A stretch of 64,000 bases of DNA from Miscanthus floridulus (taxonomy: Eukaryota; Streptophyta; Magnoliopsida; Poales; Poaceae): positions 74,121,533 to 74,185,532 of the forward strand of contig NC_089584.1 in assembly GCF_019320115.1 (NCBI RefSeq). The letters run 5' to 3'. A model generated the notes under the pieces. It was not told the origin of the DNA, did not search any database, and was given only the letters and a program-made list of their open reading frames with translations. Below, in pieces: positions 2,909-64,000 of the stretch; position 1 is the stretch's first letter; each line of letters begins with the position of its first letter. A program made the translations under genes and the position numbers.

Positions 2909-3113
2909 CTGTTCATAATAAACCAAACTTTACTCTCAAGCTTTTATTGAAATAAACGAGCTTACTTCAATACATTACACTGGGTTCACTTATTTAAGTA
3001 CAAGTCCACACCTACACAAGACTACTAAACTTAACCAGATCTCCTATTTTACAACACTACTCTTCTCCTCAACCACATCAAACTTTGTGATCGGTATCCA
3101 TGTCGGAAACATT

Positions 3114-18695: not shown

Positions 18696-20112
18696 ATAAA
18701 GTTTGATTCTTGTTATTTGCTTACAAAGAGAGTGAATGGAGTGAAGGCTAAGTTTGTTGGTACACTAATTGTGGGCTCAAAGAAGAAAACTATTTGGGTG
18801 CCAAAGAGCTTGGTCACTAACCTTGAAGGACCTAAGCAAGTTTGGGTACCTAAAAAGAATTGATCTTCTTTTGTAGGTCAATTATAAAGCCAGAGGAAGG
18901 CATTGGGTTCTTGATAGTGGGTGCACACAACACATGACCAGTGATGCTAGAATGTTCAACTCAATCAATTCCAATGAGAATGATGGTTATGATAGTATTA
19001 CATTTGATGACAATGGCAAAGGCAAGGTCAAGGGGCTTGGTAAGATTGTAATATCCAATGTCTTGAGCATATCCAATGTGTTGCTAGTAGAGAGCTTGAA
19101 CTTCAATTTGCTATCTATGGCTCAATTGTGTGATCCTAGGTTTAAGTGCATCTTTGGAGTAGATGATGTAGAGATCATAAGTGTAGATGGCTCAAATTTG
19201 ATCTTCAAAGGCTTTAGATATGAGAATCTATACTTGGCTGATTTCAATGCTAGTGAAGCTCAATTGCCAACATGCTTGTTCACTAAATCTAGCATGGGTT
19301 GGTTATGGCATAGAAGGCTTGGTCATATTGGAATGAAACAATTGAATAGATTGATTAAGCATGATCTTGTTAGAGGCTTGAAGGATGTGATATTTGAGAA
19401 GGACAAACTTTATAGTGCTTGTCAAGCCAGGAAACAAGTTGGAAACACCAATCCTAAGAAAAGTATAATGAGTACTAGCAAAGTATTGGAGTTATTGCAC
19501 ATGGACTTATTTATGCCAACAACATACACTAGTATTGGTGGAAGCAAATATGGCTTTGTGATAGTGGATGACTTCACTAGATACACATGGGTTTTCTTTC
19601 TTGTGGACAAAAGTGATATGTTTGCAACTTTCAAATTATTTTTCAAAGGCATTCATAATGAGTTTGAAACAACCATCAAGAGAGTTAGAAGTGACAATGG
19701 TAGTGAGTTCAAGAACACTAGAATTGATGAGTTGTGTGATGATTTTAGAATTAGACATCAATTCTCGGCTAAGTACACTCCACAATCAAATGGCTTTGTT
19801 GAGAGGGAGAATAGAACACTTATTGATATGGCAAGGTCTATGCTTAGTGAGTACAATGTGAGTCAATCTTTTTTGGCTGAAGCAATCAACACCGATTGCT
19901 ACTACATCAACCAATTGTATTGTCATCCATTGAAAGAGAAGACACCTTATGAGCTCTTGAATGGTAGAAAGCCCAACATTGCATATTTTTGGGTTTTTGG
20001 TTGTAAATGCTACATATTGAAGAAAAGCACTAGATTGGGCAAGTTTGACAAGAAATTTAATGAAGGATTCCTAGTTGGTTACTCCACTACAAGCAAAGCA
20101 TATAGAGTTTAG
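18696..20112 (+). pseudogene. Copia protease and integrase
   Basis: Protease active site HWVLDSGCTQHMTSD with Asp at 18913-18915. The frame is open to 20112. Integrase follows: pre-integrase motif WLWHRRLGHIG (His residues of the HHCC zinc site), then LYSACQARKQ, where only one Cys remains; the position normally Cys appears to be Tyr. Core: LHMDLFMPT, VRSDNGSEF and NGFVERENRTL supply the DDE triad. The C-terminal portion runs to VFGCKCYILKK and NEGFLVGYS before a TAG at 20110-20112. Separated from RT only by that stop. Confidence 0.88.
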
Positions 20113-20115
20113 AAT

Positions 20116-22098
20116 TTGGATAATGGTACTCCTGAGGAGGTACATTATGTTGAATTTGATGAAACCAAGGGTTCCCAAGATGAGAATGAAAATCTTGATG
20201 ATGTTAGAGGTGTTCAACTTTCAAATGCCATGAAGAACATGGATGTTGGTAAATTAAGGCCAAGACAAGTGGTAAATGATGAAGATGACAATGTGCAAGT
20301 GTTCTCTAACCCAAATGTGCAAGATGATACAAATCAAGCTAGTTCATCATCTCAAGTGCAAGATCAACAACTGGCTAGTACATCATCTCAATCCAATGCA
20401 AGTAATCAAGTGCAAGTTCTCCAACTAACACATATTGCAAGAGATCATCCATTGGACACCATTACTAGAGATATTTCTAGAGGTGTACAAACAAGATCAA
20501 GATTGGCATCATTTTGTGAGCATTTCTCATTTGTATCATTCATTGAACCAAACAAGATAGAAGAAGCCTTGAGGGATGTTGAGTGGGTAAATGGTATGCA
20601 TGAAGAGTTGAACAACTTCACAAGAAATCAAGTATGGGAATTAGTTGAGAGGTCAAAGGGACACAATGTAACTAGAACCAAATGGGTCTTTTGCAACAAG
20701 CAAGATCAAGATGGGATAGTTGTAAGGAACAAAGCAAGATTGGTAGCACAAGGTTACACTCAAGTAGAGGGTCTTGACTTTGGAGAAACATATGCCCCGG
20801 TTGCAAGATTGGAAGCAATTAGGATCTTGTTAGCCTATGCTTGTGCCCACAACATCATACTCTATCAAATGGATGTCAAGAGTGCATTTCTTAATGGCTA
20901 CATCAATGAAGAAGTTTATGTTGAGCAACCGCCTGGTTTTGAAGATGACAAGAAGCCCAACCATGTGTACAAGTTGAAGAAAGCTTTGTATGGTTTGAAG
21001 CAAGCACCTAGAGCATGGTATAAGAGATTGAGGGACTTTCTCCTCTCTTAAGGGTTCATCATGGGTAAGGTTGACACCACTCTTTTCACCAAGAAGATTG
21101 GAATGGACTTATTTGTGTTACAAATCTATGTGGATGACATTGTCTTTAGATCAACCATTCAAGACTATTGTGAAGAGTTTGGGAAGATGATGGCTAATGA
21201 GTTTGATATGTCCATGATTGGAGAATTGAGTTACCTCCTTGGTCTTCAAATCAAGCAATTAAAGAATGGTACATTTGTGAGTCAAGGCAAGTACATCAAA
21301 GATATGCTCAAGAAGTTTGGAATGAATGAGAGGAAATCCATTAGTACATCAATGGGGACATATGGTAACTTGGATAGTGATGCAAGTGGCAACATGGTGG
21401 ATAAAAGGTTGTATCGCTGTATGATTGGAAGCCTACTCTATGTGATCGCATCAAGACCAGATGCCATATTTAGTGTATGCATGTGTGCAAGATTTTAAGC
21501 CTCTCCAAGAGAAAGTCATTTGAAGTCTATAAAGACAATATTGAGGTACTTGAAGCATACACAAAATGATGATTTATGGTATCCCAAAGGTACAAAGTTT
21601 GAGTTAGTTGGTTATTTCAACTTGGATTATGCGGGATGCAAAGTTGAGAGAAGAAGCACATCGGACACATATCAATTATTAGGAAGATCACTTGTCTCTA
21701 GGTCATCAAAGAAGCAAAATAGTGTTGCACTCTCAACTGTCGAAGCTGAATACATAGCCGCTGGTAGTTGTTGTGCACAAATACTTTGGATGAAGGTTAG
21801 TTTGAATGATTTAGGAATCAAGTTTAAACAGTGCCATTGCTATGTGATAATGAGAGTGCTATCAAGCTCACCAACAACCCTGGTTCAACATGCAAGGACA
21901 AAGCACATTGATGTCCGCCACCATTTCATAAGTGATCATCAACAAAAAGGGGACATTTGCATTGAGAGTGTGGGCACCGAAGATCAACTTGCCGATATAT
22001 TCACCAAGCCACTTTATGAGAAAAGGTTTTGCAAGCTAAGGAATGAGTTGAACATATTGGATTTCTCAAATATGTGTGATGCACCCCCACTTATATGA
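20116..22098 (+). pseudogene. Copia reverse transcriptase and RNase H
   Basis: Segments in order: Gln/Ser-rich linker, [78 protein letters not shown] (first catalytic Asp), [17 protein letters not shown], a TAA at 21049, then YVDDI (21127-21141) with the paired catalytic Asp residues, GSLLYVIASRPD, a TAA at 21496, RNase H with YAGCKVERRSTS, SSKKQNSVALSTVEAEYIA, a frameshift near 21830 within the region normally reading KLTNNP, and the conserved end HARTKHIDVRHHFI...DIFTKPL. Synthesises cDNA; now inactive. Confidence 0.9.
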
Positions 22099-32549: not shown

Positions 32550-34069
32550 CTATGTTAACTTGATTACCTTAGTGGTGGGCAGTGGTCTCTTGTTGTTTAG
32601 AATATCTCTGAGGTACTTCACATAGCTAGGTACCTGTATGGCATCTAGCAAAGGAATATTGATATATAACTTTTGAATTACCTCTACGAACTTACCAAAC
32701 TGCTCATCCATTTTAGCCTTTTGATTTCTACATGGAAACGGTAGGAAGGTGGTGTCATGAAAATCTTTCATCATTTCTTGTGTTTGTGGCTCAACTTCTT
32801 CAACTTCATTGTTCTTCTTGTCCTCTTGTGCTACTACTGGTGTCTTACCTGTACTCATTGTATATGGCGGATCACAAGTAGTCTTGCCACCTCTTGTGGT
32901 TATGGCATTGACCTTCTCAAGGTTAGTAGCAATAGGAAGAGCAGTAGCCAACTAGGCTAATTGTGATTCTATCTTTTTGTTATAGCTAAGTTGGTCTTTC
33001 ATGGCAGAAGAAAAACTATCCATTTTAGTATTTATGTTTTCTAGGACCTTATCATTAAAAGCAAGCTTTTTAAAATATTTTCATTAATCCTGGCTTGTTC
33101 TAAAATCAAGTCTCTCAAGGATGGTTGCTTAGAAGGATAATTATGTAGGTACTTACCTCGGTAAGTTGACCATTCTTGTTGTTGACTCCACCCTTGTCTC
33201 TGTTGTTCTAGAGCAGAATTGTTGATGACGATGTTTGCATCTTCTTGAAATTCAGGGAAATCAGCCCCCAAATATTCTCCACATGTGTTTTGGGAATTAA
33301 AGGCATCTTGAATGGCCTGATGATCTTTCTTGTAATTGGCTCGCTGTTCAAGCTAATTCAACAGTACATCCATCTTGGTTGACAGTGCACACACCTCTTT
33401 TGGTACTTCTTCGCTCTTATTGCATGCTTGAATATTGCATTGAGCCCAACCTTGATTAGAGGCTATCTTCTCCATGAGAGTTTCAGCTTTTCCAAGGGTG
33501 AGTGACATAAATGATCCTATAGTAGTAGTATCAAGTTGTTCATGAGCTTTCTAAGTTAATCCATGGTAAAATTTTTGCATGAGCAACCAATCCTCCATTC
33601 CATGATGAGGACAATTTGAAATGTATTCTTGAGAACGTTCCCATGCCTCTAGAATGGTTTCTCCTTTCTGCTACTGGAAGTTGGAAATCTTTCCTCTTAA
33701 GGCATTGGTCTTGCCTATAGGGAAAAACTTTGCTAGAAAGGCTTTTGAACACTTTGCCCATGTATTGATGTCATCTTTGTTGGTATAGAACCACTGCTTC
33801 GCCCTTCCCACTGATGAGAATGGAAATAGATGGAGTAGTATGATGTCTTGAGCAACGTCCTTGATGGTGATTGTGCTGCTTATCTCTAGGAAATTCTGAA
33901 GATGAGCACTAGTATCTTCATATTCCTTTGTACTGAATGGAGTAGCTTGCACCATGTTGATGAGGCTTGGCTTGAGTTCAAACTCAAGGTTGTTAGTTTG
34001 GAGTGTTGGTCCAATGTGAATGTTTTTAGTGCTTAGAGCAGAGAATTCACGTAGAGTCTTGTTAGCCAT
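32550..34069 (-). pseudogene. Athila Gag, broken
   Basis: Minus-strand ATG at 34069 (MANKTLREFS). Capsid: FELKPSLINMVQ, EDTSAHLQNFLEI, DIILLHLFPFSSVGRAKQW, TWAKCSKAFLAKFFPIGKT; this order is diagnostic of Athila Gag. Stops divide the C-terminal part. Frame 33041-33271 holds RDLILEQARINENILK and frame 32550-32951 holds LPFPCRNQKAKMDEQFGKF then LYINIPLLDAIQ, the conserved gag-protease junction. Assembles the particle; inactive. Confidence 0.85.
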
Positions 34070-34275
34070 GGCTTCAGAAACTAGTGTTGAGCTTCCTTTT
34101 TGATTGGGTTGATTCTGATTGATGGAATTTGTTAGCGAATCACAACCAATCCTGCAATACCCTATATAAGATATGAACAAAGACAAACAAGGGTAAGCCT
34201 GCTAAAGTAGAGGTATAAAGTTATGATCTTGTCTATTTGCATTTATTTGATCAATTCTCTATAGCCATGTGCCCC

Positions 34276-43835: not shown

Positions 43836-44816
43836 TGTCGACACAGCATTTTCGTCTCCGTGCCGAGGACACACGCAATAAGCCAAAAGGGTCCGCTCGA
43901 TGGAGCAGATTCGCCTAGCTTCAACGCAAGGATGGTCGATCCTACGCAATTCTCCTGAGACATGCCAGTCAATTTGACCCTGCAATTGACAAGGAGAGAA
44001 AGCTCATCAGTAATTAAGGGCGGAACGTGCCGGTGTTGCCAGACAGTCCCGAATGTGTGGCTCTGAGAGCCGATATGAGAGGAGATCGACTAAATAGTCG
44101 ATTCCAACATATTCATCAGAATAAATCGATTAAAGCTCATGGAGTCGTATATGAAGAATCGGTTATCATTTAGGATAAATATTATTTAAGCAAATATTAA
44201 TCAATGGCAATAAGATATCAATGATGATCGGTTTATACTAAGCCAATGATTACAAGTAACCGAACTCTTTTTTTATAAAGAGACAATTCAACACCACTTA
44301 ACCATTTAATAAAGATAAATCTAATGAACATGTTAGATCTCATCAATCGCCATGACTAGTGGAGCATGAGGTAGAATCATGCAGGTCATAGTAACAACAA
44401 TAGACTCGACGACCCTAACTCATTACTAATATCAGTGGGGCATGAGGTAGAATCATGTAGGCCATAATACAATAATAAGATCATGGGGCTAACATATCTT
44501 TCAACTTATCTCTACTTCAATGATCTCGTAATGTGAACTATTCGTGAAAGCGCTCGATATTGGCTAAACAACCGATTTAGGCATAGCACATAATTAAGGT
44601 CATGCCTTCTCAGGAATGGGTCTACCAACTAACGATCCCCACTCCACGATGCCAATAGTGGGGTGAGAGGTAGAATCCCATAGGCCATGACGACGGGCCA
44701 TGGAACGGTTTTCATTAACTAATCGATCTACTCAAGATCAGAGATGCCTTAACCGCACACCATGCACGATTAAGATTGACGCAAAACAGCTTATAAAAAC
44801 ATAACTCATCGCTTAA
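43836..44816 (-). repeat. 5' LTR of Tat(-), first part
   Basis: Starts TGTCGACACAG in plus orientation and matches 34460 to about 35435 of the 3' LTR. It is split at CTTAA (44812-44816) by chromovirus III and continues at 57288. Confidence 0.9.
44812..44816. other. Target-site duplication of chromovirus III (left copy)
   Basis: CTTAA here and at 57288-57292. The uninterrupted LTR at about 35433-35437 has it once (CGCTTAAGATG), which proves the insertion. Confidence 0.95.
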
Positions 44817-47800
44817 TGTCGCACCCAATTTTGCAAAGCAAAACCAAGTACTCATATATGTGCGCCCAGGATGTCCAAACACACACATATATCACAAATT
44901 GTAATAGTATCAAAGTAAAGTACTTATTACATCGCATATCTCATCATAAAGTTAAATACAAAGTTTGCTCGAAGGCAATATTATTACAAACATAGCGGAA
45001 AAACTAGCCCAACTGCCACAGGGACTCCAACTGGTGAACGTCTTCCTAGTAGTCCTAGACATCCTCCGGAAACTCTTCATACCCATTATCTGTTACCCAT
45101 CCGGGATTTTCATTGGATGTAAAGCAAGTGTAAGCTCACCATGCTTAGCAAGTATAACAAAGGGATCTATGAGGCTCAAATAGGCTTGACACTGTTTGAC
45201 TGCGGTTCGCAATTTTAGTTGATCAATTTTTTAGCAACCTGAATTACTACTTTAATGAACTATCCCAATTCCCAAGTGGTATTAAAGTATCATCAAGCTT
45301 TGTCTCAATTCCCAACCATCCATCATCCACAGTAACCACTAATCTCGAAGGATCCAGACCGCTCGTATCCGTGAGCACGGCTGTTATAACAGGTTAATTA
45401 TTTCTGCAGAAATTGTACATCTTTACCCACCGAGCCATGATTCCCACTGCCGGGGTTCGTGAGACCCACTACACCTCTTCCCAGGAAGTGTGGCAGAGTT
45501 TCACTATGAAACCCTTAGCTAGTTGCACTAATAAATTGTAGCTACAAAGGAATGGCACACATGGGCATCGCAGCACGGTGCACACCCTAACAGAAAAAGG
45601 AAAGATACCCTCTTACCCCTTACTGGAGCTACAGACGAGCTAGTACAAACTAGATAATAGGTTAAAGTTAGAGTCATTTGACACTCGGGGTTGTACAGTC
45701 CCTCCTGGGTTGCCGCTTCAGGATAAAGTCCTTATGGAGAGGCACTAGAGTACTCAACCCCGTACTCCAGCCCCCTATCTGTTGCTAAAAAGTTCCATTT
45801 TATCACATTGCATATAGTCTTTAAATATGTTTAACAATTACTTCATGTTAAGCACTGCAGCATCTATCCAAAATGCCTACCCAATAAACCCAGGTATCAA
45901 GGATATGTGGTACAATGAATCATCTGGGTAAAGTCCTTAAAGGCAATTCAAATTAAACTCATGCATGAATGTAAGTGGTAGTAGTTCATAGGTAACAAGG
46001 GGCCTTTGGTACACTTGCCTTCTTCAAAGTCATCCTGGGAATACTGCTGATCCTGCTGGGGGTCCTCAGTCACCTCGAATGGCTCACCCTCTAATCGTGA
46101 TCCAATCATCAATCAAGCATCATTCCAATCATTACATGCATACAAGATAGAACTCTATTAGAACAGTACACCAAACAGTGAAAACATATGTTGAAAAGCT
46201 TACAGATCTGTTCTACGCATTTCTACGAACACATGAGCAAAAGAATCACTCAAATCGGACTTAAAACGTGAAAGTTATGCATGAAATAAGATGTAATGGC
46301 AATTCTATAAATAAACTAACCTATTTTCGAATTAAAATAATTAAAAATCTGAATTTAAATGAAATCTGGACCGGGCTTACTATTTATGGAAACTTCAGGG
46401 ACTTGAACGAATAAAAACAGGACTAAATAAAAATTAGTTTGAACTGGACTGGACCGCGGGTTGATTTCTGGAAAAAGCGGGGGCTTTTCTGTAAAACACG
46501 CTCGGTTGACTGGGGTTTGACCCGACGACTGACTGGGCTACTGACTCATCGACACGCGGTGGCTGTTCATTAGGCGTGGTGCACCACATGGGCGTGGGCG
46601 CGCTGACGTGGCATGGTGCGCCGGGTCCACGAGTCTATGGTGGACCGGCCGCTTAAACCCAACCAGTACCTAATCCTAGCCATCCACGCTAGATCCAACG
46701 GTGCAGGGCGAAAACCGGGCGGTGGCTCGCCGAGGAAGAAAGGGAGGCCGGCGGCGCCATGGCCGGTGCACCCAGACCTTGGGCTACGGCTTCCCAGGGC
46801 ACCAAAGCGAGATCTGAGGGCACAGGAAGGTGGAGGGGCTCACCGTGAGTCGCTTGGAGGGGAACGCGGCGTCCGGGAAGGCTCCGAGGCTGGTCATCGA
46901 CGGCGGCCGTGAGCTAGAGAGAGAAGAGGCGCGCGGGTGAGGGTGTAGCTAGGCAAAACAACGCTAAAACGCGAAATGGGGAGTACCTACGGGCGCGGGG
47001 AGATCTGGCGGTGCTTCGGGTGGCCTTGGCGTCGGCGTTCGCGCTCGGAAGGGGGGGGGTTCTCACCGGCGGCGGTAGCTCTCTGTAGCGGGCAAAGATG
47101 GAGAAGGGCTGAGGGGAGGCTTGGCCTTTATAGGCGAGCGGCTGTGGCAAGAAAGGAAGGGAAGCAGGGAGGGGCTTGGCACCTTCCAAACGGCGCCGGT
47201 GGCTTTCCATCGGTGCCGCGCCATGGCCGGGCAATAGAAGGAAGGGGAGCGTCAGGGAAGGAAGGTGGACGACGCGGCTGACGAGTGGGTCCAGACGCGC
47301 AGCGAGAGAGAGAGAAGGGCAATGCGCTTGCGGTGAAGCCGAGCAGGCCGCAGTAGCGTGCCGTCGCACGAAGCGGGCCGCAGCGAAGCAGCAGCTGGGC
47401 CGCCGAGTTGGTGCGCGTGCGCGGGTGGCCAGCCGGGCCGCGCGGGGTGCGGGCCAACGTGCGGTGCGGGCCGGTGAGACAGGCCGCCGAGACTGGCCAG
47501 CGGGGGAAAAAATGAAGGAGAAAGGGCTGGGCTGATTCGGTTGGGCTGAAAAGGGAAGGAGATGAATTTTTTTCAAAATCAAATCCTTTTCCAAATCTAT
47601 TTTCTCCATTTTAAATTTTAAGCCAATTTCAAATGGAATTTGAATTCAACTTCAAATCAACTAGCCCTACACTCAACCAAAAACAATATGCTTCGACATG
47701 AATGCAACAAACATGTTTCTAAACCTTATAGTTTATTTTATTTAACCAATATTTATTATTTGGCCTAAGTTAAAAATACTTAGAAAATGTAATAAAGGCT

Positions 47801-47843
47801 AAGAATTAATTGCTAATTTGTGGTAAAAATTTTGGGTGTTACA
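44817..47843 (-). repeat. 3' LTR of chromovirus III (3.03 kb)
   Basis: On the minus strand TGTAACACCC at 47843 to GGGTGCGACA at 44817. The GC-rich third (about 46440-47560) gives long accidental ORFs on both strands (46613-46912, 46914-47609, 47128-47535) that are disrupted or rearranged in the other LTR, so I do not annotate them. Confidence 0.95.
47126..47132 (-). promoter_or_regulatory. TATA box in the 3' LTR of chromovirus III
   Basis: The minus strand reads CCTATAAAGG within the GC-rich part. The same box is at 56554-56560 in the 5' LTR, where it would start the element's RNA. Confidence 0.6.
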
Positions 47844-47858
47844 AACCTACCCCCCTTA
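47844..47858 (-). other. Polypurine tract, chromovirus III
   Basis: The minus strand reads AAGGGGGGTAGGTT before TGTAACACC. It overlaps the stop codon of pol (TAA at 47856-47858). Confidence 0.85.
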
Positions 47859-48985
47859 GGATGAATCTCGTCCTTGAGATTCGGATGGTTCAAAGAGATT
47901 GGGATAGTCAGTTCTCAGATCTTCCTCTCTTTCCCACGTTGCCTCATCCACTGAGTGTCTGTTCCACTGAACCTTGCACATTCTTATTATTTTGCTCCTT
48001 GTGATTCTCTCTGCTGTTTCTAGGATTCTTACTAGATATTCTTTGTATGATAGATCCCCTTGGATATCCAGTTCTTCCAAAGGTAGTTGTTCCTCAGGTA
48101 CCCTCAAACATTTCTTAAGTTGTGACACATGGAAAACATTATGAACACCTGAGAGCTGCTCTGGTAACTCTAACTGGTAAGCAACTTCTCCTCTCCTGTT
48201 GATGATCTTGAATGGTCCCACATACCTGGGTGACAACTTTCCCTTGGTATGGAATCTCTTTACTCCTTTCATAGGTGAAACTTTGAGATAGACAAAATCA
48301 CCAATTTCAAATGCCAAATCTCTTCTTCTTATGTCCGCATAGCTTTTCTGTCGGGACTGTGCAACCTTTAGGTTTTGCCTTATTGTTTGCACTTGTTTTT
48401 CTGCCAGTTGCAAAACATCTGGTCCAAAGACTTGGCTTTCCCCCGTTTGATTCCAAAACAATGGTGTTCTGCACTTCCTGCCATACAATGCCTCAAATGG
48501 TGCCATTTTAAGACTCTTTTGGTAGCTATTATTGTAGGAGAATTTGGCATAAGGTAAACTCTTATCCCAACTTGTCCCATACTATAGAGCACAAGCTCTT
48601 AGCATATCCTCTAAGATCTGATTTGTCCTTTCAGTCTGTCCATCTGTTTGAGGATGGTAAGCTGAGCTGAAGTTCAACTTTGTATCCATTGACTCATGCA
48701 ATTTCTGCCAAAAATGTGATGTGAACTGTGTACCCCTATCTGAAACGATCTTCTTTGGTACACCATGTAAACATACAATCCTTTCCATATATAACTCTGC
48801 TAACTTTGCACTCGAATAAGTTACCTTGATCGGAATGAAATGGGCCACTTTTGTTAGTCGGTCAACAATCACCTAGATAGAGTCAAATCCTCTCTGTGTA
48901 CAGGGTAATCCAACTATAAAGTCCATTCCAACTTCTTCCCATTTCCACTCGGGTATCTTCATAGGTTGTAGTAAACCTGCTGGCC
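47856..48985 (-). pseudogene. Chromovirus III integrase core, C-terminus and chromodomain
   Basis: Inserts the cDNA. Minus-strand reading: after HPGS zinc-site residues in the upstream piece, a TAG at 48987-48989, then a short frame to a TAG at 48873-48875 (expected Trp in the segment before VIVDRLTK), then the core 48872-48582: IVDRLTKVAHFIPIKV, VSDRGTQFTS (catalytic Asp) and HPQTDGQTERTNQ (catalytic Glu). A TAG at 48582-48584 replaces Gln. Frame 48506-47856: [32 protein letters not shown] (GPY/F region), SPRYVGPFKI, HVSQLKKCL, then a chromodomain (YLVRILETAERITRSKIIRM, KVQWNRHSVDEATWE). Chromodomains bind methylated histone H3 tails in other proteins; this one lacks an obvious full aromatic cage. 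Confidence 0.9.
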
Positions 48986-48986
48986 T

Positions 48987-50369
48987 CTAATGTTCTGCTT
49001 TCACTCTTTGGCACGTGTCACATATAGCCACATGTTCTGCTACGTCTCTCTTTAGTCCATACCACCAATACCTCTCTTTAAGATCAAGATACATTTTAGT
49101 ACTTCCTGGGTGTATGGAATAGGCTGAGTCATGAGCTTCCCTCAAGATAGACTCCCTAATAGATTTTACTTCTAGCACACAAATCCTTTTACCGAACCAT
49201 ACTGTCCCTTGATCATCCATATGGAATCCTGGGGCTTTACCAATCACTATACGCTCTGCAATATCCTTGATCCTCTCATCACCCAACTGTCCTTTATGAA
49301 TCTCTTGTTCCAGAGTGGATTCTACCTCTAACTCCATGGTATTGGCCACAATACCCAAATTCAAGTATTTGAACTCCTCGCACAACTCTTCAGGTAGTTG
49401 AGTTGTATAGGCCATGTTCACATAACTCCTTCTACTCAAGGCATCAGCTACAACATTAGCCTTACCCGGGTGATAGTGAATATCCAAATCATAATCCTTG
49501 ATTAACTCGAGCCATCTTCGCTGCCTCAGATTCAGATCTGATTGTGTGAATATATACTTTAGACTCTTATGGTCCATATAGATCTCACACTTATGACCAA
49601 TCAGGTAGTGCCTCCATATCTTAAGAGCATGCACCACGGCTGCCAATTCCAGATCATGAGTCGGATAATTTAGCTTGTGTTTTCTCAGCTGTCTAGATGC
49701 GTAGGCAACAACTCTGCCTTGTTGCATAAGAACACCTCCTAAACCTTGCCGTGAGGCATCACAATAGATAGAGAAACTTTTGGTGAGATCAGGTAAGATG
49801 AGCACTGGAGCAAAAGTCAGCCTCTTCTTCAACTCCTCAAAACTGTCCTGGCATTGTTTAGTCCATACAAATTTGGCATTCTTCTCTAACAATGTAGTCA
49901 TGGGCTTGGCTAACTTAGAGAATCCCTCGATGAATCTCCTATAATACCCAGCCATACCTAGAAAACTCCGAATCTCACTAACATCTTTAGGTGGCTTCCA
50001 ACTTAACACATCTCTAACCTTCTTGGGATCTACTGCTACTCCTCCATTAGAGATTATGTGACCAAGGAAAGATACTTCTTTTAACCAGAACTCACATTTG
50101 CTGAACTTGGCATAAAGTTGATGTTCTCTAAGCTTTTGCAACACCAATCTCAAATGTCCTTCATGTTCTTCTTCATTCTTAGAATACACTAGTATGTCAT
50201 CAATGAACACGACGACAAACTTATCAAGGTACTCCATGAATACTTTGTTCATCAGATACATGAAGTAGGCAGGTGCATTAGTCAGACCAAAAGACATGAC
50301 TGTGAACTCATACAGTCCATAGCGGGTCACAAAGGCGGTCTTGGGGATGTCAGTACGCCTTATCCTCAA
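48987..50369 (-). pseudogene. Chromovirus III RT (palm to thumb), RNase H and integrase zinc site
   Basis: 460-codon open stretch between two TAG stops. [22 protein letters not shown], then catalytic FIDD (residues 55-58 of this stretch) in [12 protein letters not shown], then [18 protein letters not shown] and [18 protein letters not shown]. RNase [50 protein letters not shown], then VADALSRRS. Integrase N-terminal zinc site: [15 protein letters not shown], then CDTCQRVK. All catalytic residues of RT and RNase H that I can check are present. It is separated from the RT fingers by a single TAG at 50370-50372. Confidence 0.9.
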
Positions 50370-51275
50370 CTAATGGTATCCAGATCGAAGATCAATCTTG
50401 GAAAACACACAAGCCCCTTTCAATTGGTCAAATAGGTCATCAATTCTAGGTAATGGATACTTGTTCTTAATTGTGACCTCATTAAGTGACCTGTAGTCTA
50501 TGCACATCCTTTGTGTACCATCCTTCTTTTCTACAAATAGTACTAGTGCACCCCATGGTGATGAACTAGGTTGAACATAACCCTTATCTAACAATTCCCT
50601 TAGTTGTTTCTTAAGTTCTGCTAATTCATTCACTCCCATTCTATAGGGTCTCTTAGCTATGGGTGCAGTTCCAGGTAAAAGTTCAATTATAAACTCGATG
50701 TCTCGGTCAGGTGGCATACCTGGCAATTCCTCAGGAAAGACATCTGGGTACTCATTTGCTATTCTTATATCTTCTAAGGTTGTGCCCTCCAACTGATTAA
50801 CCTGACAGATTTTTGCAGCAGACTGAGTTGCCACAAACACCACTTCTTCTCCAGTTGAAGTGATAAGATTCACCGAGCTATTACCACAATTAATAACTGC
50901 TTTCTGCAACCTTAGCCAATCCATACCCAAGATGACATCGATACCGGTGGAATTTATGACTACAAGATTTGCTTGAAATTCTATCCCCCTTATGCTGAGA
51001 CTAGCAGCTAAGCATATCCACTCTGCTTTCATTACCCCACCAGGTGAGCTTACTAACATGTGTTTCTTCATAACACTTACTAGAATACCATGCTTCTTTA
51101 TGAATGTATATGTTATGAAGAAATGCGAAGCACCAGAATCAAAAAGTACTGTAGCTGAGTTTGAGTTGACCGGAAACGTACCGATCACTACATCTGGTGC
51201 CTCCTGAGCTATTTCAGCAGTAACATGGTTCACCTTTCCCCGAACGTAGTTCTGCTGTGAGTTAGTCTTCTTGGG
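50370..51275 (-). pseudogene. Chromovirus III protease and RT fingers
   Basis: Continues the open frame that starts with the nucleocapsid. Protease active site [10 protein letters not shown], then [15 protein letters not shown]. Linker [100 protein letters not shown] with the first catalytic Asp. It ends in the TAG at 50370 where the conserved next residue is Gln (GYHQLR in relatives), so CAG to TAG. Confidence 0.92.
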
Positions 51276-52276
51276 GCATCTATTAGAGTAATGTCCCGGC
51301 TCTCCACAATTGAAGCACTTGTTGTCATTAACTGCATTTGGCGCTTTTGGTGCGCCATTCCTCTGCGGAGCATTGGGGGCATTATTCCTCACTGGTACAT
51401 TGTTGGGTTGCTGCTGGCGCTGAGCTGGTGCCTTATACTGTTGTTGCTGCTGCTGGTTGCGGTTGGGACCTGTCTGACCTTGATAGCGCTGCTAAGGTTG
51501 AGTTTGTTGAGGGTTGGTATGGAAGCGAGAGTTGCTCCCAGATTGCTGTCCTTGAAATTTTCTCTTCTTGTCCTCCATCTGGCGGCGCTTGTTCTCAATC
51601 ACTAAAGCTTTGTCCACCAGCTGCTAGAAGTTAGCAAAGGTATGGGACAACAGCTGGTACTGGAGACCATCATTCAAGCCCTCCATAAACAGCTCCTGCC
51701 TCTTTCCATCCTTGTCTACCTCAGTAGGTGCATACCGTGACAATTGTATAAACTTGTCACGATATTCAGCAACAGTCATGCTCCCCTACTTGAGAGGCAA
51801 GAACTCCTTCTTCTTCAGCTTCATCAGTCCTGCAGGCACGTGATGAATGCGAAAGGCACTGTGGAACTCAGCCCAAGTGATGGGATTAGCTTCGGTGCGG
51901 CCGAAGTGGAATGAGTCCCACCAATCCTGTGCAGCTCCCTGCAACTGTCCAGAAGCATATAGAACTTTCTCCCTATCATCACATTGGGCAATCTCCAGTT
52001 GCCTCTCAATGGCACGTAGCCAATCATCAGCTTGGAGTGGATCGGCAGAGTGCTTGAATACAGGTGGGTGTCCTTTCAGAAACTCTCCCCTCTTATCCCT
52101 GACATGAGGGGTGCATTTCCATTCCCTTGCCCCATGTTCTGCATATTCTGGGCCATCTGCTGAAGCAACTGGGTCTGCATCATCATCAGCTGCTCCATGG
52201 AGACTGGGGGTGGTGGTGGCGGTTCCTCGCCTCCCTGGTTGTTCCTCCTGGTGTTCACCATCTGTAGAGGCATCAT
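51276..52276 (-). pseudogene. Chromovirus III Gag (capsid, nucleocapsid), broken
   Basis: Minus-strand ATG at 52276 or 52261 (MVNTRRNNQG); Pro-rich and Gln/Met-rich N-terminus. Two extra bases (AG doubled) near 52087-52092 shift the frame. In the next frame the capsid reads DPLQADDWLRAIERQLEIA, GAAQDWWDSFHFG, ITWAEFHSAFRIHHVP and MTVAEYRDKFIQLS, with TAG at 51787-51789 and in the segment NF*QLVDKALVIE (about 51625). A third TAG sits in QP*QRYQGQ (about 51493). Nucleocapsid CCHC knuckle [14 protein letters not shown] at 51276-51317. Confidence 0.9.
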
Positions 52277-53002
52277 ATAAGTCTCACATGTCCAAGCATA
52301 TAACTCTTACAAGATACTGGTGTAACAAGAGTAGGTATAGACAAGAGATATATGTAGGGTATGCAAGAAGATATTTGTTCTGAATTTTTCCAGCGAGTTG
52401 GATAGCAGCAGTGCTGTAAAACGAGCATATCTCAGTCTCTGTTTATCATATGATTGCGTAGCATACCTTTCTAGAAAGCTTATGAAATTCTCTACAACTT
52501 TCATTTAGAACACTTTTTCAGATTCCAACGTTTACTTAGTCAAATTCAGACGATAAGAAGTACTGTTCTGGAATCCTGACAGCACAGAAACCTCGACTTA
52601 CAATAGTTGTATCTCACAATTTATAATAGCTATTGAGGTGATTCCAGAGCCAGAAGAAAGATGTTGAAGTCTACTTATCTTCATAAAAATTTCATGACCT
52701 TTGGTATCTAGATTATGAGATATGAACTGATAAAGACAGACTGTTCCGAAAGATACAGAATGGACAGCATGATAAAATGAAACCCAATTATTTATTCATA
52801 ATATCCTTAAACCTTAACCTTAACTAAATGACCGTGGACATGCCCACAAGTCATCACAATCATATCAAAGATCCAAATCAAACATTATTCATAATGATAA
52901 ACATCCAACCATGCAACTATCACTTGTCCAACCATTAAAAGAAAGAAACTAAATACTCTCTCGCGTAGCTACGCGTGCTTATTACATATTTTTAAGACTC
53001 TC
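52277..53002 (-). other. Spacer between ORF0 and gag, chromovirus III
   Basis: About 725 bases of AT-rich sequence without a convincing ORF. Translation of gag downstream of ORF0 would need re-initiation, splicing or an internal start; I see no clear signal for any. Confidence 0.5.
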
Positions 53003-54064
53003 CTATGGGTATGGGTCGATGGTGGTGCTGGTGCTGGGGTCTCCAGACTCTCCTCTGGTCCTCGGGGGTGACTGAGCGGGTACTCCTGAATCTTCCACAT
53101 CTAGACCTCCTAGCTGTTGCTTCAGTGTAGCGTTCTCACGAGCCAGCTGCATGTAGGCCCTCCCCATGACATCGAGCTCATCCAGGGCCTGATCCAAGTC
53201 AGTGTGGGTCTCAGCCAAGCACAACAGGGTAGGCCTCAGCCTTAGGTTCGCCTCTCCAAGTGGTGTAGCGATGTTGCACGTAGACTGTCCCCTCCGACGG
53301 CGGGGAAGATAGCGGTCATCCTCCCAGGCGATGTCGTCGAAATGATGGTCGCGGTTGACCATCAATGCCTGTCGAGCTGCATCCCTGATGACGGCCGCAC
53401 GTGTGAGCCATGCAGTGGTGGCGCGGTGGATGTAGCGCACCTGAGTCCCCTCTCGGATGTACACTTCTGTCTCCCAAAAGCCAATGTAGTCGGGGTGGGT
53501 CCAATGCTCCGTCCTATACTGAACAGTGCCTCCAGGGTGGTAGCGATGCACAAGTGCGAGAAGCCTAGGGTGGTAGTAGCCATCACCCTCCAAGTCGTAG
53601 TGGATCTCTACAATCCATCCCTGAGCCAACGGTGCATTGTGATCATCATCATTGTCATCATCCCCATCGTCTCCACCATCTCCATCATCTCCACCATCTC
53701 CACCGTCTCCACCATTACCATCATCACCTCCATCAGCATCAGAATCATTAGAACCATCTCCATCATCGGGGTCACCAGCTCCCTCCTGGCCACCTTGTTC
53801 CTGTACTTCCTCGAGATCTTCCTCAGACTCCTCTATCTCAATGGGTCCCTTGAACATGGGTCCCTCCTCTGTTTCTTCATCCATCGGATCCTCCAACAAG
53901 TCCTCTAGAGGTTCCCCCATGGGTACCTCCACAGGCGGTTCCTCCTCTTGGTTCCTTAGAGCTTCCACAAGGTGTGCCGGGACACGCTTGCCCAAAGTGA
54001 ACCTGGTCCTCCTAGTGGGCATCAGAATGGTCCTCTTGCGTGGGGTCTGCTTGGTACGGGCCAT
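53003..54064 (-). CDS. ORF0 of chromovirus III: intact 353-residue protein with histone-H3-tail-like N-terminus
   Basis: First ORF after the PBS, with ATG at 54064. Starts MARTKQTPRKRT. H3 begins MARTKQTARKST, so 10 of the first 12 residues including Met are identical, with both H3K4 and H3K9 equivalents kept. Then a basic stretch (RRTRFTLGKR, possible nuclear signal), an acidic region (residues about 38-92), an Asp/Gly repeat (about 97-148), a Tyr/Trp/His-rich globular part (about 150-235, WIVEIHYDLEGDGYYHPRL, HWTHPDYIGFWETEV), a helical C-terminal part (LDQALDELDVMGRAY) and a Pro/Ser tail. No stop or frameshift, unlike gag-pol beside it. Elements of the RIRE3/RIRE8 kind have an orf0 of unknown function here (recalled). 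No enzyme motif was recognised. The H3 resemblance is direct; its function is inference. Confidence 0.8.
   Translation of the reverse strand: MARTKQTPRKRTILMPTRRTRFTLGKRVPAHLVEALRNQEEEPPVEVPMGEPLEDLLEDPMDEETEEGPMFKGPIEIEESEEDLEEVQEQGGQEGAGDPDDGDGSNDSDADGGDDGNGGDGGDGGDDGDGGDDGDDDNDDDHNAPLAQGWIVEIHYDLEGDGYYHPRLLALVHRYHPGGTVQYRTEHWTHPDYIGFWETEVYIREGTQVRYIHRATTAWLTRAAVIRDAARQALMVNRDHHFDDIAWEDDRYLPRRRRGQSTCNIATPLGEANLRLRPTLLCLAETHTDLDQALDELDVMGRAYMQLARENATLKQQLGGLDVEDSGVPAQSPPRTRGESGDPSTSTTIDPYP
53620..53775. repeat. GAT/CAT-rich low-complexity tract inside ORF0
   Basis: Imperfect repeats of CCATCATC, CCATCTCC and similar encode the Asp/Gly stretch of ORF0. This tract also creates spurious ORFs in the other frames (53342-53908, 53652-54092, 53608-53793), which are shadows. 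Confidence 0.8.
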
Positions 54065-54231
54065 CTACAAGAATGAAAAGGTTGAGTATTAGAACAAAAT
54101 AATTTTGGCAACAGATAAAGAACAGGATATAAGAAAAAATTTTATAGCAAAGTAAAAGTAGTAAAATAAAGATAATGAAATCCTAAAAACGTCCATTTCT
54201 ATCTAGGTTGTTCATCCTACAGTCAGTTATA

Positions 54232-54243
54232 GCTCTGATACCA
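54232..54243 (-). other. Primer-binding site, chromovirus III
   Basis: The minus strand reads TGGTATCAGAGC, an exact initiator-Met-type PBS, 3 bases inside the LTR edge (54247). Confidence 0.92.
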
Positions 54244-54246
54244 ATT

Positions 54247-57200
54247 TGTCACACCCAATTTTGCAAAGCAAAACCAAGTACTCATATATGTGCGCCCAGG
54301 ATGTCCAAACACACACATATATCACAAATTGTAATAGTATCAAAGTAAAGTACTTATTACATCGCATATCTCATCATAAAGTTAAATACAAAGTTTGCTC
54401 GAAGGCAATATTATTACAAACACAGCGGAAAAACTAGCCCAACTGCCATAGGGACTCCAACTGGTGAACGTCTTCCTAGTAGTCCTGGACATCCTCTAGA
54501 AACTCTTCATACCCATTATCTGTTACCCATCCAGGATTTTCATTGGATGTAAAGCAAGTGTAAGCTCACCATGCTTAGCAAGTATAACAAAGGGATCTAT
54601 GAGGCTCAAATAGGCTTGACACTGTTTGACTGCAGTTCGCAATTTTAGTTGATCAATTTTTTAGCAACCTAAATTACTACTTTAATGAACAGTCCCAATT
54701 CCCAAGTGGTATTAAAGTATCATCAAGCTTTGTCTCAATTCCCAACCATCCATCATCCACAGTAACCACTAATCTCGAAGGATCCAGACCGCTCGTATCC
54801 GTGAGCACGGCTGTTATAACAGGTTAATTATTTCTGTAGAAATTGTACATCTTTACCCACCGAGCCATGATTCCCAATGCTAGGGTTCGCGAGACCCACT
54901 ACACCTCTTCCCAGGAAGTGTGGCAGAGTTTCACTATGAAACCCTTAGCTAGTTGCACTAACAAATCGTAGCTACAAAGGAATGGCACACGTGGGCATCG
55001 CAGCACGGTGCACACCCTAACAGAAAAAGGAAAGATACCCTCTTACCCCTTACTGGAGCTACAGACGAGCTAGTACAAACTAGATAATAGGTTAAAGTCA
55101 GAGCCATTTGACACTCGGGGTTGTACGGTCCCTCCTAGGTTGCTGCTTCAGGATAAAGTCCTTATGGAGAGGCACTAGAGTACTCAACCCCGTACTCTAG
55201 CCCCCTATCTGTTGCTAAAAAGTTCCATTTTATCACATTGCATATAGTCTTTAAATATGTTTAACAATTACTTCATGTTAAGCGCTACAGCATCTATCCA
55301 AAATGCCTACCCAATAAACCCAGGTATCAAGGATATGTGGTACAATGAATCATCTGGGTAAAGTCCTTAAAGGCAATTCAAATTAAACTCATGCATGAAT
55401 GTAAGTGGTAGTAGTTCATAGGTAACAAGGGGCCTTTGGTACACTTGCCTTCTTCAAAGTTGTCCTGGGAATACTGCTGATCCTGCTAGGGGTCCTCAGT
55501 CACCTCGAATGGCTCACCCTCTAATCGTGATCCAATCATCAATCAAGCATCATTCCAATCATTACATGCATACAAGATAGAACTCTATTAGAAAAATACA
55601 CCAAACAGTGAAAACATATGTTGAAAAGCTTATAGATCTGTTCTATGCATTTCTACGAACACATGAGCGAAAGAATCACTCAAATCGGACTTAAAACGTG
55701 AAAGTTATGCATGAAATAAGATGTAATGGCAATTCTATAAATAAACTAACCTATTTTCGAATTAAAATAATTAAAAATCTGAATTTAAATGAAATCTGGA
55801 CCGGGCTTACTATTTCTGGAAACTTCAGGGACTTGAATGAATAAAAATAGGACTAAATAAAAATTAGTTTGAACTGGACTAGACCGCGGGTTGATTTCTG
55901 GAAAAAGTGGGGGCTTTTCTGCAAAACGCGCTCGGTTGATTGGGGTTTGGCCCAATGACTGACCGGGCTGCTGACTCATCAACACGCGGCGGCTATTCAT
56001 TGGGCACGGTGCACCACGCGGGCGTGGGCGCACTGACGCGGCACGGTGCGCCGGGTCCACGAGTCTATGGTGGACCGGCCGCTTAAACCCAACCGGTACC
56101 TAATCCTGGCCATCCACGCTAGATCCAACGGTGCAGGGCGAAAACCGGGCGGTGGCTCGCCGGGGAAGAAAGGGAGGCCGGCGGCGCCATGGCCGGTGCG
56201 CCCGGACCTTGGTCTATGGCTTCCCAGGGCGCCAAAGTGAGATCTAAGGGCACGGGAAGGTGGAGGGGCTCACCGTGAGTCGCCTGGAGGGGAACGCGGC
56301 GTCCAGGAAGGCTCCGAGGCTAGTCGTCGACGGTGGCCGTGAGCTGGAGAGAGAAGAGGCGCGCGGGTGAGGGTGTAGCCGGGCAAAACAACGCCAAAAC
56401 ACGAAATGGGGAGTACCTACGAGCACGGGGAGATCCGGTGGTGCTTCAGGTGGCCTTGGCATCGACGTTCGCGCTCGGAAGCGGGGGTTCTCACCGGCGG
56501 CGGTAGCTCTCGGTAGTGGGCAAAGATGGAGAAGGGCTCAGGGGAGGCTCGACCTTTATAGGCGAGCGACTGCGGCAAGAAAGGAAGGGAAGCAGGGAGG
56601 GGCTCGGCACCTTCCAAACGGCGCCAGTGGCTTTCCATCGGTGCCGCGCCATGGCCGGCCAATAGAAGGAAGGGGAGGATCAGGGAAGGAAGGTGGACGA
56701 CGTGGCTGACGAGTGGGTCCAGACGCGCAGCGAGAGAGAGAGAAGGGCAATGCACTTGCGGTGAAGCCGAGCAGGCCACAGCAGCGTGTCGTCGCGCGAA
56801 GCGGGCCGCAGCGAAGCAGCAGCTGGGCCACCGAGTTGGTGCGCATGCGCAGGTGGCCAGCCGGGTCACGCGAGGTGTGGGCCAGCATGCGGTGCGGGCC
56901 GCGTGCGGTGTGGGCCGGTGAGACAGGCCGCCGAGATAGGCCAGCGGGGAAAAAAATGAAGGAGAAAGGGCTGGGCTGATTCGGTTGGGCTGAAAAGGGA
57001 AGGAGATGAATTTTTTTCAAAATCAAATCCTTTTCCAAATCTATTTTCTCCATTTTAAATTTTAAGCCAATTTCAAATGGAATTTGAATTCAACTTCAAA
57101 TCAACTAGCCCAACACTCAACCAAAAACAATATGCTTCGGCATGAATGCAACAAACATGTTTCTAAACCTTATAGTTTATTTTATTTAACCAATATTTAT

Positions 57201-57287
57201 TATTTGGCCTAAGTTAAAAATACTTAGAAAATGTAATAAAGGCTAAGAATTAATTGCTAATTTGTGGTAAAAATTTTGGGTGTTACA
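54247..57287 (-). repeat. 5' LTR of chromovirus III (3.04 kb)
   Basis: Starts (minus strand) TGTAACACCC at 57287, ends GGGTGTGACA at 54247, and is collinear with 44817-47843. It contains about 20 extra bases near 56890-56920 (a short GTGCGG-type duplication). Confidence 0.95.
56554..56560 (-). promoter_or_regulatory. TATA box of the chromovirus III promoter
   Basis: TATAAAG on the minus strand in the 5' LTR. Transcription would run leftward from about 56525, giving an R-U5 region of more than 2 kb before the PBS. Confidence 0.6.
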
Positions 57288-57652
57288 CTTAAGATGTAGA
57301 TTAGATCAATTTTAAATTAGCAAACGATGAGTTAAACAAGATATAAGGCCGATCTAGATCAATCTCAATCGGGCAGAGTGATATTGCTGTAGTTAGATAA
57401 AAGATGAAAGCAATAAGCAATATCGGTAACTTAATGAATCTACCAAAGACTGCCATACTAAGGTAGAGCTGATAACTTGACCTTGATCTAATTCAAGCAG
57501 TGGGGTGTGAGGTAGAATCACACAGGCCATACTTGAATTAGATAAGAGTCAATAACTAGCCTATACCGGAGTTACAATGGGGGTCGACTGGATCGATGTA
57601 GCCATACGAACAGAGGTATAAACCATGATGATACTTACAGACAAGCAGTGGA
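57288..57652 (-). repeat. 5' LTR of Tat(-), second part
   Basis: Begins with the right copy of CTTAA and continues the Tat LTR, matching about 35433-35796. It includes two of the hairpin repeats (57499 and 57577). It is cut at GTGGA (57648-57652) by chromovirus IV. Confidence 0.88.
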
Positions 57653-62309: not shown

Positions 62310-64000
62310 GATTTGCAAGACCTACCATTCTTGGAAAAAGGCGGGATAAACTTATCGTAAATAATCTTCTCTTTCCCACGTAGCATCTTGTTCACTGTGA
62401 TTGTTCCACACCACCTTATAGAACTTAATAATCTTACTCCGTGTTACTCTTTCCATCTCCTCTAATACTCAAATTAGCTTTTCTTCATAGGTCAAATCCG
62501 ATTGAAGCTGCACATTGGTGGGTGCAATAGCTGCTTTAGGTACTCGAAGACATTTCTTCAACTAAGAAACATGGAAGACATCAAATATTTCACTCATCTC
62601 AGGTGGAAGTTGTAACTTATAAGCAACATTTCCCTTTCGTTCCAGAATCTTGTATGGCCCTACATATCTAGGTGAAAGCTTCTTCTTCATTCCAAATCTC
62701 TTCACCCCTTTCATGGGTGATACTTTCAAGTACACATAGTCACCCACTTCAAAAGTCAGTGGTCTCCTTCTTCTATCAGCATAACTCTTTTGTCTTGATT
62801 GAGCTGCCTTCATATGCTATTGGATAACATGTACTTGCTCTTCAGCTTCATTGACAAAGTCAGTACCAAAGTATCTCCTTTCACTAGGCTCAATCCAATT
62901 CAACGGAGTTCTACATTTTCAGCCATACAAGGCTTCAAATGGAGCCATCTTGATACTCGCTTGATAACTATTGTTATAGGAGAACTCAGCTAAAGGTAAC
63001 CATTTCTCCCATGAACCTTTTGAAGATATAACACAAGCTCTAAGCAAATCTTCTAGGATTTGGTTCACTCACTCTGTCTGTCCTGAAGTTTGTGGATGGT
63101 ATGCCGAACTTCTGATCAATTTAGTTCCCAAAGCCTGGTGCAAGTGCTCCCAGAAACAAGCTATGAACTGTGGTCCTTAATCTGAGATTATGGTCTTGGG
63201 TACTCCATGTAGTCTCATGATCTAGGAAACATATATCTTAGCATATTTCCCTACTATAACCTTGTGTTCACGGGTATAAAATGTGCTAACTTGCTGAGAC
63301 GATCTACAATGACCCATATCGAATCATGACCTTGTGGTGTCATTGGAAGGCCTGTGATAAAGTCCATACTGATTTCTTCCCATTTCCAACCTGGGATAGG
63401 CAATGGCTAAAGTAATCCAGTAGATTTCATATGAACAGCTTTTACTCTACTGTAGTTATTGCACCTAGCAACATAGGCTATGATCTCTTTCTTCATCTTA
63501 GTCCACCAAAAACGGGTTTTCAAATCTTATTACATCTTACTACTAGCCGGGTGAATAGACAATTTGGACGAGTGAGCTTCATCTAAAATTTGGTTCCTAA
63601 GCTCATGGTCTTTTGGTACCACAAGTTGGTCCTCAAACCATAACATGCCTCTTTCATCCAATTTGAAATGCTTGGTCTCTTGCTCTTGCATTTTTCTCTT
63701 GATGTGACTTATTCCTACATCTGTCTCCTGCAGCTCTATGATTTTGCTCTCAAGTGAACAATTGATCGTGATATTGTGTAGTACAGCAGGGTGTAACAAG
63801 TTGAATCCATCTTCCAATAATGCTTCCATAGTGTTGCAATGAGATTTTTGACTGAGTGCATCTGCTACTACATTAGCTTTGCCCGGATGGTAGTGCACTT
63901 CTAAATTGTAGTCCTTAATTAGCTCTAACCACCTTCGTTGTCTCATGTTCAGCTCTGGTTGGGTAAAGATATACTTGAGACTTTTATAGTCAGTATATAT
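62310..64000 (-). pseudogene. Chromovirus IV RNase H end, integrase and chromodomain, broken
   Basis: From the right edge: end of RNase H ([20 protein letters not shown], then [10 protein letters not shown]), a spacer, [18 protein letters not shown], and the integrase zinc site ([14 protein letters not shown]) before a TAA near 63528. The integrase core between 63480 and 62990 is broken by many stops. Frame 62813-62562 has YADRRRRPLTFEVGDYVYLK, SPMKGVKRFGMKKKLSPRYV and YKLQLPPEMSEIFDVFHVS. After a stop a chromodomain follows (LEEMERVTRSKIIKF, KVVWNNHSEQDATWE). Similar throughout to chromovirus III but clearly a different, older family. Confidence 0.85.

Follow-up and report, generated by a model that had tools for sequence, protein, structure and literature searches.

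An H3-tail-like N-terminus on the ORF0 protein of a Tekay/RIRE8-like retrotransposon of Miscanthus floridulus

The Tekay-type chromoviruses RIRE3, RIRE8, Retrosat2, ZMsat2, and Sorsat2 carry an ORF0 between the 5′ LTR and gag, and the available sections of PMC3485330 and PMC11728184, which describe it, assign no experimentally tested function to the ORF0 of these abundant grass elements. The LTRs of Retrosat2, RIRE3, and RIRE8 are given in the available excerpts as about 3 kb long, and the same excerpts report disordered stretches, a long C-terminal helix, and a weak likeness to the DRBM fold for the ORF0 proteins of maize Tekay and sorghum Sb7. Mimics of the H3 tail are found among viral and cellular proteins, as non-histone proteins with a short ARTK-like peptide; influenza NS1 and G9a are examples.

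We analyzed a 64,000-nucleotide stretch of the Miscanthus floridulus genome (hereafter, the window) containing an ORF0 with similar features, which the original prediction had described as beginning with a tail like that of histone H3. As in the known mimics, a short ARTK-like peptide is carried by a non-histone protein; the ORF0 differs from them in that the peptide appears to form the true N-terminus, combines K4 with K9, and belongs to a plant LTR-retrotransposon protein. Relative to the previously described Tekay-type ORF0s, which we compared by their descriptions, the H3-like tail is a new point. We saw no such report among the top-listed open-access papers on retrotransposon histone mimicry, on ARTK or ARTKQT in connection with transposons, and on ORF0. 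Three papers on extra ORFs (PMC3485330, PMC7264820, and PMC11728184) nowhere use the term "histone" in their main texts.

The element and its open reading frame

The ORF0 belongs to a 12.5-kb Ty3-type, Tekay/RIRE8-like element with 3.0-kb LTRs, a target-site duplication, and a broken gag-pol. The features of the element and of its ORF0 are as follows (positions in the window).

57288–57292, no strand: target-site duplication CTTAA, right
54247–57287, minus strand: 5′ LTR, 3041 bp, from the LTR alignment
54232–54243, minus strand: primer binding site TGGTATCAGAGC
54065–54084, minus strand: pyrimidine-rich stretch ending in TAG and abutting the ATG; it has the look of a 3′ splice site and closes the upstream frame
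53003–54064, minus strand: ORF0, open frame of 353 aa
54029–54061, minus strand: H3-tail-like residues 2–12 (ARTKQTPRKRT) of ORF0, from the sequence, relatives, and genomic copies
53639–53938, minus strand: acidic Asp/Gly-rich linker, residues 43–142, net charge −42
53327–53584, minus strand: predicted dsRBD fold (alpha-beta-beta-beta-alpha) without KKxAK, residues 161–246, from a model
53114–53239, minus strand: predicted long C-terminal helix, perhaps a coiled coil, residues 276–317, from a model
51624–52306, minus strand: gag region, split across several frames
47856–51491, minus strand: zinc knuckle, protease, RT, RNase H, and integrase pieces, interrupted
47892–47981, minus strand: weak chromodomain match at the integrase C-terminus (PF00385, 20.4 bits, under the cut-off of 25.1)
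44817–47843, minus strand: 3′ LTR, 3027 bp, from the LTR alignment
44812–44816, no strand: target-site duplication CTTAA, left

The primer binding site is one that we take to be of the initiator-Met tRNA type. Both the LTR length of about 3 kb and the presence of a separate same-strand ORF between the 5′ LTR and gag agree with Tekay/RIRE8/Retrosat2-type elements; here, ORF0 lies just inside the 5′ LTR, between the primer binding site and the gag region. Aligned over 3025 sites, the two LTRs show 120 differences (K2P 0.041), which corresponds to an age of about 1.6 million years at a substitution rate of 1.3e-8 per site per year. According to the part of PMC3485330 available to us, RIRE8 and Retrosat2 share identical LTR ends, TGTCACACCC…GGGCGTGACA; the 5′ LTR in the window ends in TGTAACACCC…GGGTGTGACA, each end one change away, and the outer end of the 3′ LTR carries one further change relative to the 5′ LTR. 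The intactness originally noted applies to the ORF0, which is open; the gag-pol of the element is broken in several frames. Other retroelement pieces in the window include Copia-type gag, integrase, and reverse transcriptase at 16830–21051 on the plus strand (PF14223, PF00665, and PF07727), gag (PF03732), RT, and RNase H pieces identified by Pfam at 2306–2926 (minus), 8015–9442 (plus), and 33671–34186 (minus), and a stretch at 63530–63946 (minus) that reads like a Ty3 pol fragment and has no Pfam match.

ORF0 runs from 54064 to 53003 on the minus strand, and its protein begins with MARTKQTPRKRTILMPTRR. Within the N-terminal residues MARTKQTPRKRT, those following the Met match the H3 tail (ARTKQTARKST) at 9 of 11 positions, which confirms an open frame starting with an H3-like tail. 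When the frame was read from stop to stop, the first residue was the same Met, and the ATG was immediately preceded by TAG in all 79 genomic copies with upstream sequence (81 copies examined, two lacking it). The H3-like residues thus stand at the very N-terminus as predicted; the TAG fixes the start for the unspliced frame, and an N-terminus extended upstream is ruled out for that frame. In these copies the TAG sits in a conserved pyrimidine-rich stretch, TTCATTCTT(G/A)TAG or a near variant, which together with the TAG resembles a plant 3′ splice site; a transcript spliced there would lose the upstream AUGs of the leader. A free Ala1, as the original prediction assumed, would arise through removal of the Met. 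One Miscanthus floridulus protein (P0013) joins an NBS-LRR gene model, named RGA3-like, in the same frame to a piece of ORF0 that begins with MARTKQTPRKRT; this fusion is either an annotation artefact or a genuine exonised retrotransposon piece.

For one protein at a fixed place, and without correction for the number of proteins or motifs that could have been noticed, the 9/11 match has a probability of 4.2e-10 under a plant-like amino-acid composition. The same score was reached in none of 1,000,000 permutations of ORF0 residues 2–28 and in 11 of 1,000,000 permutations within residues 2–12. These values share the lack of correction, and the relatives are therefore the stronger test. A PDB search with the tail alone returned no match at E ≤ 1. 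Chance resemblance was rejected on the fixed-position and permutation tests together with the conservation in relatives described below.

Relatives and genomic copies of the N-terminus

A full-length homology search, in which the 7993 candidates with the most words in common were scored, gave 15 matches, and a second search that used the globular domain only, and so was blind to the N-terminus, gave 78. Together these yielded 83 proteins, of which 39 were read; 11 of the 39 include the N-terminus, as follows.

MARTKWTARK: P0001, P0003
MARTKCTPRKSTGG: P0004
MARTKLTARK: P0008
MARTKQTPRK: P0013
MARTKMTPRK: P0065
MARTKLTPRK: P0080
MFRTKWTARK (A1 replaced by Phe): P0009
MAHTKLTARK (R2 replaced by His): P0011
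MASTKLTTRK (R2 replaced by Ser): P0014
MACTKLTARK (R2 replaced by Cys): P0015

Only the blind search found P0065 and P0080, only the full-length search found P0011, P0013, P0014, and P0015, and the other five were found by both; P0008, P0013, and P0015 are named as Miscanthus floridulus proteins. TK-x-T-x-RK is kept in 11/11 of these sequences and ARTK in 7/11, so these ORF0 relatives do not show the unrelated N-termini that would have refuted the original prediction. Of the features that the original prediction considered kept, K4, K9, and the RK stood, whereas the complete ARTKQT did not: relatives carry Q, L, W, C, M, or K at position 5, and ARTKQT was rejected as the conserved core.

P0004 reads ARTKCTPRKSTGG and equals H3 at 11/13 and 12/16 positions (per-protein P 2.7e-12 and 4.0e-12); Pro16 of H3 falls within the alignment as well. 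This protein is represented by one database entry, on a contig of 1.2 kb; a database search with its residues 1–40 returned P0004 itself as the sole candidate, and its PDB match to an H3 peptide had an E-value no better than 0.56. Scanning viral contigs with P0065 turned up no relative.

Compared with the window ORF0, P0065 is 43% identical in the globular domain, 6/30 in residues 13–42, and 10/12 at the N-terminus; the corresponding values for P0004 are 71%, 8/30, and 10/12. N-terminal identity exceeded the globular rate for P0065 (p 0.011), the sole such case among six tested, and did not for P0001, P0003, P0004, P0008, and P0009 (p 0.26 to 0.90). In a four-way alignment of the window ORF0, P0001, P0004, and P0065, the only invariant residues among positions 1–62 were M1, A2, R3, T4, K5, T7, R9, K10, and P16. 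In H3 numbering, those in the tail are the Met followed by A1, R2, T3, K4, T6, R8, and K9, and each of these invariant residues equals that of H3. Positions 1–10 were invariant at 8/10, compared with 1/52 in positions 11–62 (Fisher p 1.2e-7) and 72/343 in the rest of the protein (p 1.6e-4). Among 343 eleven-residue segments ranked by conservation, those starting at residues 1 and 2 came fifth to sixth (tied) and 17th; the top ranks were taken by the dsRBD-like helix and the RYLPRRRRGQ stretch.

We also examined genomic copies. From 100 loci (L001–L100), five whose start was not recognised (L038, L056, L060, L081, and L098) were left unscored and 14 duplicates over the first 240 nt were dropped (in most cases the same place sampled twice, in some cases separate places of identical sequence), so that 81 copies remained; 12 from later searches brought the scored set to 93. 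Among the unscored loci, RTK-x-T-x-RK was kept in L038, which had lost its ATG (ATA), and in L056 and L060, which had Val for A1. L098 has Cys at R2 followed by TK-x-T-x-RK, and its sequence piece, like that of L081, begins past the ATG. The copies are a non-random sample, with 30 loci each forming the top of two similarity lists and the others picked from three lists, and come from the best 115 of 4593, 115 of 5254, 123 of 3920, and 121 of 3839 candidates.

Because full-length queries, tail included, ranked these similarity-picked copies, the following counts overstate conservation: T3, K4, and T11 were kept in all 93, A1 and K9 in 92 each, T6 in 89, R2 in 86, and R8 in 78. Where R2 (His 5, Tyr 1, Cys 1), R8 (His 9, Cys 6), T6 (Ile 4), or A1 (Thr 1) had been replaced, the cause was a C-to-T or a G-to-A change or both; the single loss of K9 (Asn) was neither. 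At the remaining H3 positions, Q5 was Leu in 48, Gln in 41, a stop in 3, and Lys in 1; A7 was Pro in 45, Ala in 41, and others in 7; and S10 was Arg in 91 and His in 2. The stops arose at codon 6 by CAG to TAG (3/93). Together with the His, Cys, or Tyr codons that have replaced those of R2 and R8, they give codons 3, 6, and 9 the pattern that decay of methylated cytosines would be expected to leave.

Ten older copies (L106–L115) were compared with the window ORF0. Codon 3 differed synonymously in nine and had changed to Cys in one, codon 7 was synonymous in eight and Ile in two, and codon 11 was synonymous in eight, His in one, and unchanged in one. The Arg of codon 9 was lost in four, one of which had also lost the Lys of codon 10, and the amino acid had changed at codon 6 in 10/10 and at codon 8 in 9/10. 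Pairwise pN/pS ratios among the 81 copies, which are descriptive given that the copies share decay history and were picked by similarity, were 0.11 for codons 2–5, 0.45 for codons 2–12 (0.23 without codons 6 and 8), and 0.19 for codons 13–42. The value for codons 2–12 is above that for 13–42 because Q5 and A7 vary, so that protein-level constraint would spare H3 positions 5 and 7. Neutral decay of the match was not seen, amino-acid changes in the tail being fewer than synonymous ones. Within this genome, constraint on the tail does not exceed that on the 30 codons that follow it, and its conservation appears outstanding only against distant relatives.

The remainder of the protein

Beyond the tail, the original prediction of an acidic Asp/Gly-rich, globular, helical, and non-histone protein was upheld by charge, structure models, and Pfam. 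Residues 1–42 are basic (charge +7) and precede the acidic linker. A structure model of the whole protein had low confidence (mean pLDDT 50.4), so the globular domain was modelled separately; the AlphaFold2 domain model has block pLDDT values of 69–85 over residues 150–239 and shows a beta-sheet flanked by two helices. Proteins with a dsRBD made up the majority of the 50 VIA-align rows shown, which are drawn from Foldseek's top 1000. Foldseek itself returned nothing at E ≤ 0.001 with this model; its best E-value rows, none of them below E 0.03, were a mixture with numerous beta-lactamases, and we drew no conclusion from them. Pfam searches gave 0 families for the dsRBD-like domain fragment and no family at E ≤ 10 for the window ORF0 and P0004. 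We rejected a histone identity for ORF0, as no Pfam histone family was matched and the modelled sheet with two helices has no histone fold.

The KKxAK RNA-binding motif at helix 2 is absent in all four aligned ORF0s, which read TRAA-x-I-x-DAARQAL (three) or TQAAGIADAARQAL (one) there. In having no KKxAK, the ORF0 domain differs from the Dicer-partner dsRBDs of HYL1, DRB4, DRB7.2, TRBP (dsRBD3), and Loqs (dsRBD3). Given this absence, the modelled domain, if it is a dsRBD at all, would be nearer to the protein-binding type B dsRBDs (classification from the available part of PMC5716075).

Candidate explanations of the H3-like tail

The explanation we consider best, and would place slightly below an even call, is that the tail is a selectively kept mimic of the H3 tail, mainly of its K4 side, and that ORF0 is an accessory protein encoded by a chromovirus of Tekay/RIRE8-like type. 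Of the readings considered, a role as H3 mimic leads, although it is unproven. Positions A1, R2, T3, K4, and T6 are those used by K4-side H3 readers, H3 Q5 is usually solvent-exposed in PHD complexes, and H3K9 chromodomain reading involves a pocket for A7. The mimicry originally proposed is supported by the kept ARTK-x-T-x-RK; on the other side, Q5 and A7 vary, P7 and R10 would suit K9 readers poorly, A1 is lost in P0009, and R2 is lost in P0011, P0014, and P0015. Because of P7 and R10, H3K9 chromodomain reading of the tail is probably unlikely, and the K4 side makes the better case for mimicry than the K9 side. The likeness at family level appears stronger than the original prediction knew, given the distant conservation and P0004, and also weaker, given the freedom of Q5 and A7, a K9 side unlike that of H3, and no extra constraint within the genome.

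Under the mimicry reading, selection would keep the N-terminus as ARTK-x-T-x-RK, the Met would be removed, and the tail would be presented on the flexible acidic linker to host proteins, where it would mimic chiefly the K4 side of H3. Its putative partners would be readers or modifiers of unmethylated H3K4; the dsRBD-like domain and the long helix may provide protein contacts and oligomers, and ORF0 may be located in the nucleus. The likeliest benefit would be to decoy or recruit silencing H3K4me0 readers, such as SHH1 and ZMP, or H3K4 writers or erasers. According to the available part of PMC7617993, both proteins work with Pol IV in the RNA-directed DNA methylation of plants: SHH1 recognises H3K4 in its unmethylated state together with methylated K9, and ZMP, which has a PHD, recognises unmethylated H3K4. 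A decoy at the SHH1/ZMP–Pol IV step would presumably help the element. If true, this would add plant retrotransposons, which are silenced through H3 marks, to the known cases of histone mimicry, and the conserved H3-like N-terminus gives ORF0 function a concrete, cheap test. Antibodies against the H3 N-terminus may cross-react with ORF0. An elaboration that we consider unlikely is that the element captured a host H3 tail and fused it to a Dicer-partner-like dsRBD, giving a two-armed anti-silencing protein whose tail would decoy the SHH1 and ZMP that bring Pol IV, while the type-B-like dsRBD would disturb DCL/DRB partners.

Possible, if on balance doubtful, is a conserved basic motif that resembles H3 by accident and serves a different purpose, for example as an NLS, in nucleic-acid contact, or in binding of the element's own Gag or integrase. 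It fits the charge of +7 beside the −42 stretch, the nuclear prediction for grass Tekay 5′ ORF proteins (PMC11728184, available part), and the positions Q5, A7, and S10, which are not H3-like across the family. Such a motif would, however, be expected to tolerate K/R swaps and loss of T3 or T6, whereas K4 and T3 are unchanged in 93/93 scored copies, and the invariant island is limited to the first ten residues, all of whose invariant positions equal H3. We give little weight to a tail that is the remnant of a captured host H3 first exon whose H3 function was lost or never used. The sequence ARTKCTPRKSTGG of P0004, 11/13 to H3 with Pro16 aligned, would suit it, as would an ATG placed right after the 3′-splice-site-like TTCTTGTAG, as if an intron end had been co-captured; yet a functionless tail would not hold 8/10 residues while positions 11–62 diverged.

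Constraint on the RNA at the 5′ end of ORF0 (a splicing enhancer, packaging, or translation start), with the protein likeness as a by-product, seems very improbable. Although pS over all pairs is somewhat lower in codons 2–12 (0.16) than in 13–42 (0.27) and the region adjoins both the splice-site-like motif and the start codon, subfamilies show synonymous differences at codons 3, 7, and 11 with the encoded residues largely unchanged, and divergent proteins retain the tail residues. Mimicry of CENH3 rather than H3 is just as improbable. Grass CENH3s start MARTK, which would be compatible with it. A Lycoris CENH3 peptide, ARTKQTAQNHPSKRRR, likewise starts ARTKQTA (PMC8483392, available part), but it is missing the H3 spacing R8-K9 that ORF0 has. 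Moreover, the available part of PMC11728184 describes sunflower Tekay group 2 insertions, which have 5′ extra ORFs, as not centromere-biased. The Lycoris sequence also points to CENH3 as an alternative template for ARTK-type mimics.
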